Shown one piece after another: positions 53,719 through 58,315 of a stretch of DNA of 60,422 nucleotides. Made by a program: the position numbers and the translations under genes. The notes under the pieces were generated by a model that saw only the letters and a program-made list of their open reading frames with translations, made no database searches and had not been told where the DNA came from. The first letter of the stretch is position 1. Every line of letters begins with the position of its first letter. The stretch comes from Thermoplasmataceae archaeon (lineage in GTDB: Archaea > Thermoplasmatota > Thermoplasmata > Thermoplasmatales > Thermoplasmataceae). The stretch covers positions 1 to 60,422 of the forward strand of contig JAVYSB010000001.1 of NCBI GenBank assembly GCA_038729425.1, read 5' to 3'.

Positions 53719-54129
53719 TTAAGATAATACAAAATGCGGTACAACAAGCATGGCAAAAAACAACACAAATAATACAGCTGAAGATAAGATTATGTAAAGT
53801 GCGTTTCTTTCCCTCACAAACGATATAAGTGAAAAGAACACGACTGTTATGGGGGTAAATATAAGTACCCAAAGACCGAAAGAAACGAAATATGCACCAT
53901 TGAGATGATAAATCCCAGCAAATATGTTGTTAAGCGGGATCAGTTTGGAATATAAGGTAGTATTCGTAGGAGGAGGGGTTGAATAGTATGATATTTGCTG
54001 GATTGTGTACCCGTCGGCGCCACCTCTAACAAACATCAGAACGACGCCTGCAATTAGGGATGAAATACTCAGGAGAACCCCTGCTCTCAGTGTGGCACTT
54101 ATCAGCTTATATATATCGATCTCCTTCAT
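53719..54129 (-). CDS. DUF1634 membrane protein
   Basis: A 136-residue protein with three membrane helices: 12-35 (ATLRAGVLLSISSLIAGVVLMF), about 80-105 and about 110-135. The LISATLRAGVLLS start is the DUF1634 signature. This family is regularly encoded beside TauE/SafE permeases, as here, and is thought to be an accessory subunit. Its ATG overlaps the exporter stop codon, so the two are coupled. Confidence 0.85.
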   Translation of the reverse strand: MKEIDIYKLISATLRAGVLLSISSLIAGVVLMFVRGGADGYTIQQISYYSTPPPTNTTLYSKLIPLNNIFAGIYHLNGAYFVSFGLWVLIFTPITVVFFSLISFVRERNALYIILSSAVLFVLFFAMLVVPHFVLS

Positions 54130-55127
54130 TTCTGCTTCACCTCTTCAATCAACATAGCCTTATTTACCCGCCTCCGGTTGTGTATAAACAGAATTGTAAT
54201 GAATACAACTGCAAAGACAATAGCAATTGAAAACTCGGCAATAGGCGCCAAAGAAATTATATAATCTATGCTAAATCCCTTGAGAATCATTTCCACACCA
54301 AGGAAAGAAAGGAGTGCCAGGAAGATCCACCTGATGTTTTTATTGGTTATCTTTACAAGTACCTTTGCGCCAAAGTACGCCCCAATGACAACACCGATTG
54401 CCGTACCGGCTGCAATGAATATCTGAATATATCCAGAATACCAGTAAATAGAGCTCCCCGTAGCCGCGGTAATTCCAATCATGAAATTGCTGGTTGTCGT
54501 GGTCACTTTCATTGGAAGGTTCATGGCCCAATCCATCCCAAGAACCTTTAGGGCGCCACTTCCTATTCCCAGAAGCCCAGAAACTATGCCTGCAAATAAC
54601 ATTATGATTTCCCCTAGCCACCATCGAACTCCGTCGTAACTGACTTTTTTCTTTAGCCTTGAGTCGTAATATGTGCCCGAAAGATCGAACAATCTGGTAG
54701 TCCAGTCCGGTTTTATATTAGGGGGGAGCTCTGATTGTCCTCGTTTTACGGTCGGGATCAGCGAAACCAGCAAGACGATTCCGAAAATAATGTATATTAC
54801 CCATTCGAAATTGTGACCTGTCAGGTATACTGACAAAAGTGATCCTATTACTGCGCCTGTCGTCGTTGCGACTTCGAGGCCAACGCCTATTTTGATATTG
54901 GCAATTTTCTCTTTAGTGTACGAACTCGCAGAACCGGCCGAGGTTGCAATGGTAGAGATAAGGCTGGCACCAGTGGCAAAAATAATAGGTACTCCATAGA
55001 AAATAGTAAGCAATGGAACAAGAACTGTACCGCCACCAAGACCGGTTAATGATCCTATGAAACCTGCAAGAATGCCTCCAATGACGATAGACAAGAATTT
55101 GCCGATTATAGCCAATGTCGCAAACAT
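54126..55127 (-). CDS. TauE/SafE family anion permease
   Basis: About 333 residues with eight or more hydrophobic segments. The first repeat GGILAGFIGSLTGLGGGTVLVPLLTIF and the later GIVSGLLGIGSGALKVLGM carry the paired Gly-rich motifs of TauE/SafE permeases, which export sulfite, sulfoacetate or related organosulfur anions. The frame extends to a GTG at 55136. I chose ATG 55127: a minus-strand TATA box lies 25 bases before it, and the AGGTG around the GTG looks like a ribosome site. Substrate not determined. Confidence 0.88.
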   Translation of the reverse strand: MFATLAIIGKFLSIVIGGILAGFIGSLTGLGGGTVLVPLLTIFYGVPIIFATGASLISTIATSAGSASSYTKEKIANIKIGVGLEVATTTGAVIGSLLSVYLTGHNFEWVIYIIFGIVLLVSLIPTVKRGQSELPPNIKPDWTTRLFDLSGTYYDSRLKKKVSYDGVRWWLGEIIMLFAGIVSGLLGIGSGALKVLGMDWAMNLPMKVTTTTSNFMIGITAATGSSIYWYSGYIQIFIAAGTAIGVVIGAYFGAKVLVKITNKNIRWIFLALLSFLGVEMILKGFSIDYIISLAPIAEFSIAIVFAVVFITILFIHNRRRVNKAMLIEEVKQK

Positions 55128-55147
55128 GACCGACACCTATTGAAAGA

Positions 55148-55485: not shown

Positions 55486-55494
55486 TTATTTATG
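55486..55494 (+). promoter_or_regulatory. TATA box of the SPFH/zinc-ribbon operon
   Basis: TTATTTATG lies 31 to 39 bases before ATG 55525, giving a short leader that contains GGATAGGGA as a possible ribosome site. Confidence 0.45.
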
Positions 55495-55524
55495 CTAAGG
55501 TAACATTTGTGGATAGGGATATTA

Positions 55525-56082
55525 ATGCAACCTGAAGAACCTAACCCGGATATCCCGCAGGAAGTGAAGGAGAACCGCGGGCTTTTAAAGAAGATACAGT
55601 TAATTATACCTGGATTCAGGGAATACAGAATTGGCGACGATTTAAGGGCTGCGGACGCATTGCTGCGGAAGCAGATCTCCAGTTCCCTCAATAGATCAAT
55701 TGCTGCTCTTCAGTCAGCTAGAAGCAGATTAGCATCAGATGGGGATTTCAACAACCTGACCTCCATTGCCTCTGCCCTTTCGAAACTTCAGCAGCTTGAT
55801 GGTGAAATACTCCATTCCGCACAGGGGTATACAGGAATTTCCCCGACGATAAGAATAGATGCCTCAAGACTCAATTCACTGTACAAGTACGATCTCGGAT
55901 TTCTAGACTACTCAGAAAAATTCGAGACTCTTTCTGGATCTCTACCCCTTAATGACTCGAATGCCCTCAAGCAGAGAATGGATGACATTTCCGGTCTCGC
56001 GGTGGAAGTGAAAAATAACTGGGAAAAGAGAATTGAAACTATTGAGAATATACTGATAAGCAGAGGTGGTGACAAGCAATGA
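55525..56082 (+). CDS. helical/coiled-coil protein of SPFH operon, uncharacterised family
   Basis: A 185-residue cytosolic, mostly helical protein. Landmarks are IIPGFREYR (28-35), a long helix ADALLRKQISSSLNRSIAALQ, SAQGYTGISPTIRID near 98-112, and LYKYDLGFLD near 119-128. I recall bacterial and archaeal proteins with the same PG(Y/F)R-Y, GY-G and LY-x-DL pattern encoded beside SPFH proteins, but not a name. It plays the part a PspA-like coiled-coil protein plays in comparable operons, though it is not clearly PspA. The start ATG was chosen over the TTG at 55507. It overlaps the SPFH gene by 4 bases. Confidence 0.65.
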   Translation: MQPEEPNPDIPQEVKENRGLLKKIQLIIPGFREYRIGDDLRAADALLRKQISSSLNRSIAALQSARSRLASDGDFNNLTSIASALSKLQQLDGEILHSAQGYTGISPTIRIDASRLNSLYKYDLGFLDYSEKFETLSGSLPLNDSNALKQRMDDISGLAVEVKNNWEKRIETIENILISRGGDKQ

Positions 56083-57245
56083 TCGGAAAGAAGTCTAAGA
56101 ATATTCCTGATAAGGGAGGAAGCGTTTTTGGTTCCACAACAATAGCTTGGGAAACTGAGTACAAGCAAGGAAGCATCATGTGGAAGGTCCCGCGCCTGAT
56201 CAGGCTTAACGACAACATAGTGGTACGCGAGGATGAAACTGCTGTTTTCTTCAGAGACGGAAAGGTACTGACATATTTCGATCAGCCAAACAGGTATGCC
56301 CTGACAGATTTCAATGCTCCTGTCGTTGGCGGACTCCTTAAATTTTTTGCCGGGGTACAGCAACAGGCTGAAGTTTACTATATTCAGAGAAGGATACTTG
56401 ACGGAAAGTTCGGCAGTACTCAGCCTTACCAGTTCACAGATGCCACATTCGGAGTGGTAAATCTTAAGGTATTCGGTGAGTACAGGTGGAAGATATCCAG
56501 CCCAGAGGTATTCATAAACCAGTTCGTAGGGACTTTCAACCTTGAAACCAGTGAAGAGGTTGAAACCAGGTTAAAGGAGCAGATGGTAATACTAATTTAC
56601 AGTGCAATTGGAAAGATGAAGGAGAAGGGGTTGAAGGTCACTGACATACCTGCAAACCTTCTAAATATTGAACAGGTGGTACTTGCAACTGCTCCGGATC
56701 AGTTCCAGCAATACGGATTAGAAATAAATAAGCTCTCTGGCCTGACCGTCAACCTGCCTGATGATGTGCAGAAGGCCATAGATAAAAGATCTGAGATGTC
56801 TGTGCTCGGCGTGAATTATCTGCAGCTGCAGGCTGGTGAGGCGATGGTTGACGCCGCAAAGAACCCTTCCGGTATGGCAGGTGCTGGCGCAGGCATTGGC
56901 ATAGGGCTCGGTGCTGGGGCTGGAATGGGGTACGCGATGAGCGGCCAGATGATGGGTGGTATGACCTCTGGAATGCAGCAACCCCAGATGAAGGCATGTC
57001 CAAAGTGTGGATCAATGATACCGGCAAATTCTACCTTCTGCCCGAATTGCGGTGCGTCTTTAGCGATACAGCAGAAGACAGGAATGATAAAGTGCCCGAA
57101 ATGTGGAACTGAATCTCCCGAGGGAACAAAATTCTGCCCGAATTGCGGATCCAGCTTGGAACCCCAGAAGATAAAGTGCCAGAATTGTGGGACCGAATCC
57201 CCTGTGGGAACAAAATTCTGCCCGAATTGCGGAAAACAACTGTGA
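56079..57245 (+). CDS. SPFH/band-7 protein with three C-terminal zinc ribbons (YdjI-like)
   Basis: A 388-residue protein. Residues about 20-235 form an SPFH/band-7-type domain of the virion-core-like YdjI group (TTIAWETEYKQGSIMWKVPRL, VREDETAVFF, FGEYRWKISSPEVFIN). A Gly/Met-rich stretch follows (265-300), then three four-Cys zinc ribbons of CPKCG...CPNCG type between about 307 and 388. There is no clear membrane helix, so it may be peripheral. Ribbons two and three share a 28-base identical DNA segment, a sign of recent internal duplication. Bacterial YdjI partners PspA at stressed membranes; that role is inferred here. Confidence 0.85.
   Translation: MIGKKSKNIPDKGGSVFGSTTIAWETEYKQGSIMWKVPRLIRLNDNIVVREDETAVFFRDGKVLTYFDQPNRYALTDFNAPVVGGLLKFFAGVQQQAEVYYIQRRILDGKFGSTQPYQFTDATFGVVNLKVFGEYRWKISSPEVFINQFVGTFNLETSEEVETRLKEQMVILIYSAIGKMKEKGLKVTDIPANLLNIEQVVLATAPDQFQQYGLEINKLSGLTVNLPDDVQKAIDKRSEMSVLGVNYLQLQAGEAMVDAAKNPSGMAGAGAGIGIGLGAGAGMGYAMSGQMMGGMTSGMQQPQMKACPKCGSMIPANSTFCPNCGASLAIQQKTGMIKCPKCGTESPEGTKFCPNCGSSLEPQKIKCQNCGTESPVGTKFCPNCGKQL
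57122..57233 (+). repeat. 84-base internal tandem duplication of a zinc ribbon
   Basis: The 28 bases beginning GGGAACAAAATTCTGCCC occur identically at 57122-57149 and 57206-57233, a period of 84 bases (28 codons). They encode GTKFCPNCG. A shorter match at 57038 marks the older first ribbon. Confidence 0.85.
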
Positions 57246-57255
57246 GGTGTAAAGA

Positions 57256-58263
57256 ATGTATTGTGAAAAATGTGGTGCTCAGATAGCTGATGATGCCTTG
57301 TTCTGCCCTAAATGTGGTGCGAAGACCAGTTTGGCTGTTTCAGGAAATGCTGGACAGAAAAGCCAGGACAGCAGACCTGTGATCGCTGCCCCGGAGATCC
57401 AGGCGATGAAATGCCCGAGCTGTGGTGCTCCAATTAAGCCTCAACTTGGTGAAATGATTATAACGTGCGAGTATTGCGGAGCAAGCGTCACGCTTAACTC
57501 TGACGGTTGGAGAAATGTCCAGAAACATTCCATGCTGCCGTTGAAGATAAATGATAAGGATAGTCTTACAAAACTCCTCCATGACTACATGGATCGGGGC
57601 ATCTTAAGGAGGCACCTCGAGGAAGAATCTCAGAGCGAGGGCATGAATCTTGCTTATATTCCATACTGGGTAGTACCGGTTTCTGCCAGGACACAATATA
57701 CGGCTGTCAGTGCAGCAGCGGAAGCTGGAACTCTCGCAGGTACAGCGCTTTTAATGGGACTCATGGGAGGTGCCATGGGGGGCCGTGGAAGAGGTGGATT
57801 CGGGATGGGACTCGTTGGTGGAACCATGGTTGGAGGTATGATGATGGGGGGTGGCGGTGCTAATACCATTCGCGCCTATACGCTTGACAACAACTATGAC
57901 TACCCTGTTGTGGCTGTGAAAGGACTCCTGAATTACCAACCTAAGGACTACTCTTTTGATCTTCAGACCCGAATCATTTTTGATGTCTCAAAAATCCCAA
58001 AGGGAATAAAGACACTGAACGGAGATGTTGGGCAGGAATCGGCTCAATATGAGGCAAAGACCTATGTGGACCAGCTTCAGAGCAGCAAAGCTCACGAGAA
58101 GCACCATATGATACAGAAAATTGTCACCCAAGATGATGTCGCTGAACCTGAGCTTCTGCATGTGCCCATATGGTTTGCGAAATTCACGCATAAGGGAAAG
58201 CAGATTTCACTTGTAATTGACGCAAGTAACGGGAAGGTCATCAACAGCATCGGACTTCAGTGA
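57256..58263 (+). CDS. double zinc-ribbon, glycine-rich protein of the SPFH operon (YdjG-like)
   Basis: A 335-residue protein. It has zinc ribbon one at residues 3-24 (CEKCG, CPKCG) and a TFIIB-like ribbon at about 54-76 (CPSCG, CEYCG). A mixed alpha/beta region with LPLKINDKDSLTKLLHDYM and YIPYWVVPVSA follows. Next is a Gly/Met-rich segment (about 165-205) that may insert in or lie on membrane, then a beta-rich end with LLHVPIWFAKFTHKGK. The YIPYWVV and HVPIWFA segments resemble the repeated module of bacterial YdjG-type proteins. Third and last gene of the module, 10 bases after the SPFH gene. Confidence 0.65.
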   Translation: MYCEKCGAQIADDALFCPKCGAKTSLAVSGNAGQKSQDSRPVIAAPEIQAMKCPSCGAPIKPQLGEMIITCEYCGASVTLNSDGWRNVQKHSMLPLKINDKDSLTKLLHDYMDRGILRRHLEEESQSEGMNLAYIPYWVVPVSARTQYTAVSAAAEAGTLAGTALLMGLMGGAMGGRGRGGFGMGLVGGTMVGGMMMGGGGANTIRAYTLDNNYDYPVVAVKGLLNYQPKDYSFDLQTRIIFDVSKIPKGIKTLNGDVGQESAQYEAKTYVDQLQSSKAHEKHHMIQKIVTQDDVAEPELLHVPIWFAKFTHKGKQISLVIDASNGKVINSIGLQ

Positions 58264-58307
58264 TTTGCTTAAATTCCAAGAATCCGCCCGAAATAATATT
58301 TCCCTAC

Positions 58308-58315
58308 TTTTTTTT
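58308..58315 (+). terminator. T8 tract, likely transcription terminator
   Basis: A run of eight T follows the SPFH operon stop by about 45 bases without a hairpin, as in archaeal T-rich terminators. Confidence 0.4.

Follow-up and report, generated by a model that had tools for sequence, protein, structure and literature searches.

The stretch of DNA analyzed here (the window; 60,422 nucleotides from a Thermoplasmataceae archaeon) contains three genes, referred to as A, B, and C, which lie on the forward strand in the order A–SPFH–zinc ribbon. The first-pass annotation described them as tightly coupled, and its coordinates, spacing, and domain assignments were all borne out: A and B overlap by four bases (ATGA), and C starts 10 bases past the stop codon of B. 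The features of the locus are as follows.

55486–55496, forward strand: TATA-like element TTATTTATGCT, ∼29–39 bases upstream of the ATG of A; putative promoter element.
55525–56082, forward strand: gene A, encoding a 185-aa helical-bundle protein, a distant relative of NF047596 (LIMLP_15305 family).
55573–55626, forward strand: amphipathic N-terminal segment of A, residues 17–34 (NRGLLKKIQLIIPGFREY); candidate site of membrane or partner contact.
56079–57245, forward strand: gene B, encoding a 388-aa protein with an SPFH (Band_7_1) domain, a Gly-rich linker, and three zinc ribbons.
57256–58263, forward strand: gene C, encoding a 335-aa protein with two N-terminal zinc ribbons and a Gly-rich hydrophobic insert.
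58306–58315 (approximate), forward strand: T-run ∼45 bases past C; putative terminator.

The TTATTTATGCT element occurs once in the window, where 0.08 matches would be expected, and is partly conserved, with an AT-rich block aligned to it upstream of A in most of seven relatives. The gene upstream of A (54126–55136) is divergently oriented, and the T-run 3′ of C is, judged by its sequence, a probable archaeal transcription terminator. Bounded by a divergent neighbor, the TATA-like element, and the T-run, A–B–C looks like a self-contained operon, and since A and B stand in this order in over 100 genomes, the arrangement is not the product of chance.

Protein A has no match in Pfam. It is related to the NCBIfam model NF047596 (LIMLP_15305), which takes its name from a locus tag of Leptospira interrogans and with which it aligns over nearly its whole length (residues 17–171 to model positions 14–167; E = 7e-7), but its score of 29.3 bits falls far below the curated cut-off of 210 (the best relative reaches ∼73), which by the NCBI rule makes it a distant homolog lying outside the named equivalog. 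All 48 aligned relatives of A match this same model (best E = 2.3e-20) and match no other consistently. A is thus no oddity of one genome but belongs, as a remote member, to a larger family. By these profile matches, A belongs to a widespread, uncharacterized group of proteins that extends over many families of the phylum, the bacterial half of which is represented here by the NCBIfam model alone; the lineage-specific novelty implied for A at first reading is thus not upheld. A profile scan of genome contigs returned four Thermoplasmatota loci only, and no relatives of A were found in plasmids and phages by tblastn or in a scan of viral contigs.

Across the 48 relatives, Y34, D44, D123, and R169 are invariant and P29, G30, R41, R48, G101, and L119 nearly so; the pattern first picked out in the single sequence (PG-F/Y-R-x-Y, GY-G, and LY-x-DL) proves to be a family signature of the form PGF..Y, R..D..LR, GY.G, and LY.YD. 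The AlphaFold model (pLDDT 87, pTM 0.80) likewise agrees with the early description of A as all-helical, being a helical bundle with helices at residues 10–27, 37–71, 78–96, 113–138, and 145–181. Residues 17–34 (NRGLLKKIQLIIPGFREY) have the highest hydrophobic moment in the protein (0.52) and carry the conserved consensus RG-LKKIQL-IPGF among the 48 relatives. This segment may touch the membrane or B, and for membrane binding the case rests on this one amphipathic stretch. In one family (f7), A is fused to an N-terminal zinc ribbon of its own (L115:6269-7000, L146:5297-6217, and L198:2269-3000).

Protein B contains an SPFH domain (PF13421 Band_7_1, E = 8.9e-33, 114.1 bits compared with a gathering score of 24; PF01145 is at threshold) followed by three C-terminal zinc ribbons (PF13240, three stretches, E = 8.8e-22), and has no strong transmembrane segment (hydropathy maximum 1.16). 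Protein C has two N-terminal zinc ribbons (PF13240, two stretches, E = 1.7e-11), an α/β “PYW” region, a Gly-rich hydrophobic insert (approximately residues 155–205), and a second “PIW ... VIDASNGKV” region. The quality of its AlphaFold model is moderate (pLDDT 70, with low confidence at residues 27–48 and 155–202), and a fold search with this model gave nothing significant, the YpeB C-terminal domain appearing just at E = 5.9. In other families C often occurs as two paralogs (∼247 and ∼336 aa) plus another zinc-ribbon protein of ∼190 aa; the paralogs are genuinely related to the window protein (hhalign probability 99.4, E = 4.5e-21, with the window C left out of their profile). Most of these relatives end in C-terminal hydrophobic segments of transmembrane strength (hydropathy ∼1.8–2.7, many above 2), whereas the Gly-rich hydrophobic stretch of the window C is weaker (maximum 1.33) and this protein has no strong transmembrane segment, which leaves membrane anchoring in this organism uncertain.

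The linkage of A to B was surveyed with the NF047596 and PF13421 profiles over 390 genomes of the phylum, a divergent family (f36) being counted apart. Outside f36, a Band_7_1 gene lies immediately downstream of A, on the same strand, at 113 of 116 sites. Of the three exceptions, two (G156 and G343) lie at the end of a contig, and the other (G201, L109) has a C-family gene separating A from B. Counted by genome, again outside f36, 113 have both genes, two have A only (the contig-end cases), nine have B only, and 240 have neither; two of the nine (G076 and G386) do carry A by other searches, which leaves seven cases of the SPFH gene without A. The spacing from the A stop to the B start, scored in 43 pairs, runs from −4 to +16 bases. 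Within f36, a gene of 320–417 aa lies directly downstream of 23 of the 24 diverged A genes. Pfam detects only zinc ribbons in its products, and profile–profile comparison identifies them as remote SPFH proteins (hhalign probability 90.5, E = 1.4e-6; probability 23 with an earlier, poorer alignment). Genomes within a phylum are not independent samples, and the weight here is borne by the recurrence of the pair over many genus- and family-level groups. The A–B linkage is near-obligate, and the co-occurrence with SPFH genes in other genomes, whose absence the first-pass annotation had named as fatal to its proposal, is close to absolute. C is the zinc-ribbon partner of the module and its linkage is frequent: 32 of the 43 A–B pairs have a C-family gene in the same orientation no more than five genes away, with the gene calls of relatives taken from a simple ORF picker and the flanking genes therefore approximate. 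We found no published description of the A–SPFH linkage in the open-licence literature, so an earlier one may exist, and no experiments on any member of the module in the literature searched.

Several variants of the locus were also observed. The SPFH-like proteins downstream of A in f36 (L137-L140 and L167-L186) are highly diverged and contain an extended charged stretch of coiled-coil-like character; most of them also bear a zinc ribbon at the C terminus. One genome (G003) holds two A–SPFH modules (L124:6370-8978 and L125:6603-9013). In the second, A is short at 158 aa, the SPFH protein (287 aa) has no zinc ribbons, and a zinc-ribbon protein is encoded separately. A different SPFH subfamily (∼448 aa, two zinc ribbons) occurs without A at L193:5647-8273 and L192:5332-6672, the former followed by a C-family gene. 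The window genome itself has a second, ordinary Band_7 gene of the stomatin type (L001, contig C3:86745-87272), with A on another contig.

SPFH proteins are present in all domains of life and, to our knowledge, few of them have known obligate partners. Gene linkage of the kind seen here indicates a shared process without specifying which. Our preferred reading, to which we give somewhat better than even chances, is that A–B–C constitutes an SPFH membrane scaffold that works without PspA, with A as the helical protein dedicated to B. Like stomatins and flotillins, B would oligomerize through its SPFH domain, on the cytoplasmic side of the membrane and with its zinc ribbons serving as docking arms, and C, whose distant relatives have transmembrane segments, would anchor or recruit B there. 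The compact helical bundle of A, with its N-terminal amphipathic segment, would bind B and perhaps the membrane, and B might assemble or release A, much as YdjI governs PspA clustering in Bacillus subtilis. The likely task of such a complex would be to organize or protect the membrane, or to assemble membrane complexes; its physical existence, its membrane location, and a role in stress or assembly are what we infer from the arrangement and domain content of the genes.

The main rival differs in purpose: the module would be a chaperone-like or quality-control scaffold that assembles membrane protein complexes, its zinc ribbons recruiting substrates, rather than a system that responds to stress or damage. 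SPFH/band-7 proteins have repeatedly been proposed as assembly chaperones (PMC11237479), the multiple zinc ribbons and the paired C paralogs with their hydrophobic segments would fit a client-binding platform, and no stress-response regulator was seen linked to the module. In the listed loci, the flanking genes of which are without domain annotation, linkage to a client gene is not evident, and we regard this explanation as a serious one of distinctly lower probability.

A further possibility is that A is a very diverged PspA/ESCRT-III protein and that the operon is an archaeal PspA–YdjGHI system in the strict sense. The operon logic and the helical content are alike, and in a search of a viral fold library with A a phage PspA/IM30 protein ranked second, at the nonsignificant values of E = 0.066 and TM 0.35. 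Set against this, PF04012 (PspA/IM30) matches neither A nor any other protein of the window genome; the A profile picks up no PspA, Vipp1, or Snf7 sequence in the PDB at E ≤ 1; and the A model has no match among PDB folds below E = 0.001, CdvB reaching just E = 0.6 and TM 0.33. The fold of PspA is a long hairpin, unlike the helices of 35, 19, 26, and 37 residues predicted for A, and an ESCRT-III-like gene is present elsewhere in the genome (C6:82012). We conclude from sequence and modeled structure that A is not recognizably a PspA or ESCRT-III protein, its similarity falling short of that expected for the superfamily, and the first reading of A as no recognizable PspA agrees with sequence, profile, and predicted fold alike. 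An identification of A as PspA was accordingly rejected on the sequence, profile, and fold searches, and extreme divergence from such an ancestor seems improbable. Least likely is a defense or conflict system with a membrane SPFH effector, in favor of which counts a scattered occurrence in closely related genomes (59 of 117 in the order), but against which stand the lack of any PADLOC family for A, B, or C, a gene order that is stable across distant families, and the lack of plasmid or phage matches to A.

The PspA-independent scaffold remains the reading that we favor, and it carries some broader consequences. A helical protein that almost never occurs without an SPFH gene, in a phylum nearly free of PspA, offers a concrete handle on archaeal SPFH scaffolds. 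It also suggests that Bacillus, with its PspA–SPFH pair, exemplifies a more general pattern in which an SPFH oligomer is coupled to a helical client, and it gives the A family, which has no Pfam entry and owes its NCBIfam name merely to a Leptospira locus tag, a testable function. More tentatively, and in our estimate with somewhat less than even chances, A may found an uncharacterized class of dedicated SPFH partners that is unrelated to PspA and possibly both archaeal and bacterial, and which together with the zinc-ribbon protein C would form a PspA-independent membrane scaffold, the SPFH oligomer assembling, capping, or deploying A on the membrane.

Parts of the module recur in other settings. 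On a plasmid of Pseudorhodobacter turbinis (L157:4962-7173), a Band_7 gene is directly followed by a C-family gene (profile E = 7.7e-19), as B is followed by C, but this locus is without A and its C protein ends in a hydrophobic segment. A Novosphingobium plasmid (L159:4484-9936) carries a Band_7 gene clustered with two DUF4178 proteins, DUF350, and a polyamine aminopropyltransferase, an assemblage that resembles the polyamine-linked band-7 operons (PMC11237479). Within the archaea, the “Meth_adaptin” ESCRT loci encode an SPFH–coiled-coil–zinc-ribbon protein linked to Vps4 and ESCRT-III (PMC10936438). As in the window, these loci have an archaeal SPFH protein with a zinc ribbon, there tied to membrane-remodeling genes; unlike them, the window genome has its ESCRT-III/Vps4-like genes on another contig (C6), and the partner linked to its SPFH gene is A. 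That contig of G000 carries a probable minimal ESCRT system (L194:3971-5734), comprising a Snf7-like protein of 206 aa (weak PF03357) followed by a protein of 366 aa whose reading as Vps4-like rests on its sequence judged by eye; ESCRT-III/Vps4-like genes have been reported for Thermoplasmata (PMC10936438).

The closest comparison is with pspA–ydjG–ydjH–ydjI of B. subtilis. There, the SPFH protein YdjI has no membrane anchor of its own, depends on YdjG/H for its placement at the membrane, and is required for PspA foci (PMC8581546). Of the other two proteins, YdjG combines a pair of zinc ribbons with a YpeB-related domain, and YdjH is a TPM-domain protein (PMC11237479). Both loci combine, in one operon, an anchorless SPFH protein bearing zinc ribbons with a helical protein and a zinc-ribbon protein, and B has the C-terminal zinc ribbons expected of a YdjI-type SPFH protein. 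The helical protein of the window, however, is not PspA, the genes run in the order A–SPFH–zinc ribbon, and no YdjH-type protein is present, TPM (PF04536) having no matches in the window genome in a search that was positive in the controls, B. subtilis and others. For YdjG, two zinc ribbons, a YpeB-related NTF2-like domain, and a transmembrane segment would be expected; C, a candidate counterpart at most, has the two zinc ribbons but no strong transmembrane segment, and its fold match to the YpeB C-terminal domain, noted above, is nonsignificant. The likeness to the Bacillus system drawn in the first-pass annotation therefore stands for the SPFH/zinc-ribbon module, its co-inheritance, and its arrangement, and fails for PspA and TPM, which are absent from the genome. 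Nor can A be described as a subunit substituted for PspA, as the same annotation had proposed, because PspA is rare in the phylum with or without A (PF04012 in eight of 390 genomes, three of them above the cut-off) and a PspA-like gene coexists with A in two (G303 and G326). The accompanying argument from a wall-less acidophile lifestyle fares no better, since several near-complete genera of the same family (g4 and g15) lack the module and distant families have it, so that it does not obviously track that trait. The A–B–C module is not a member of the PSP system, and a likeness to it in mode of action is plausible.
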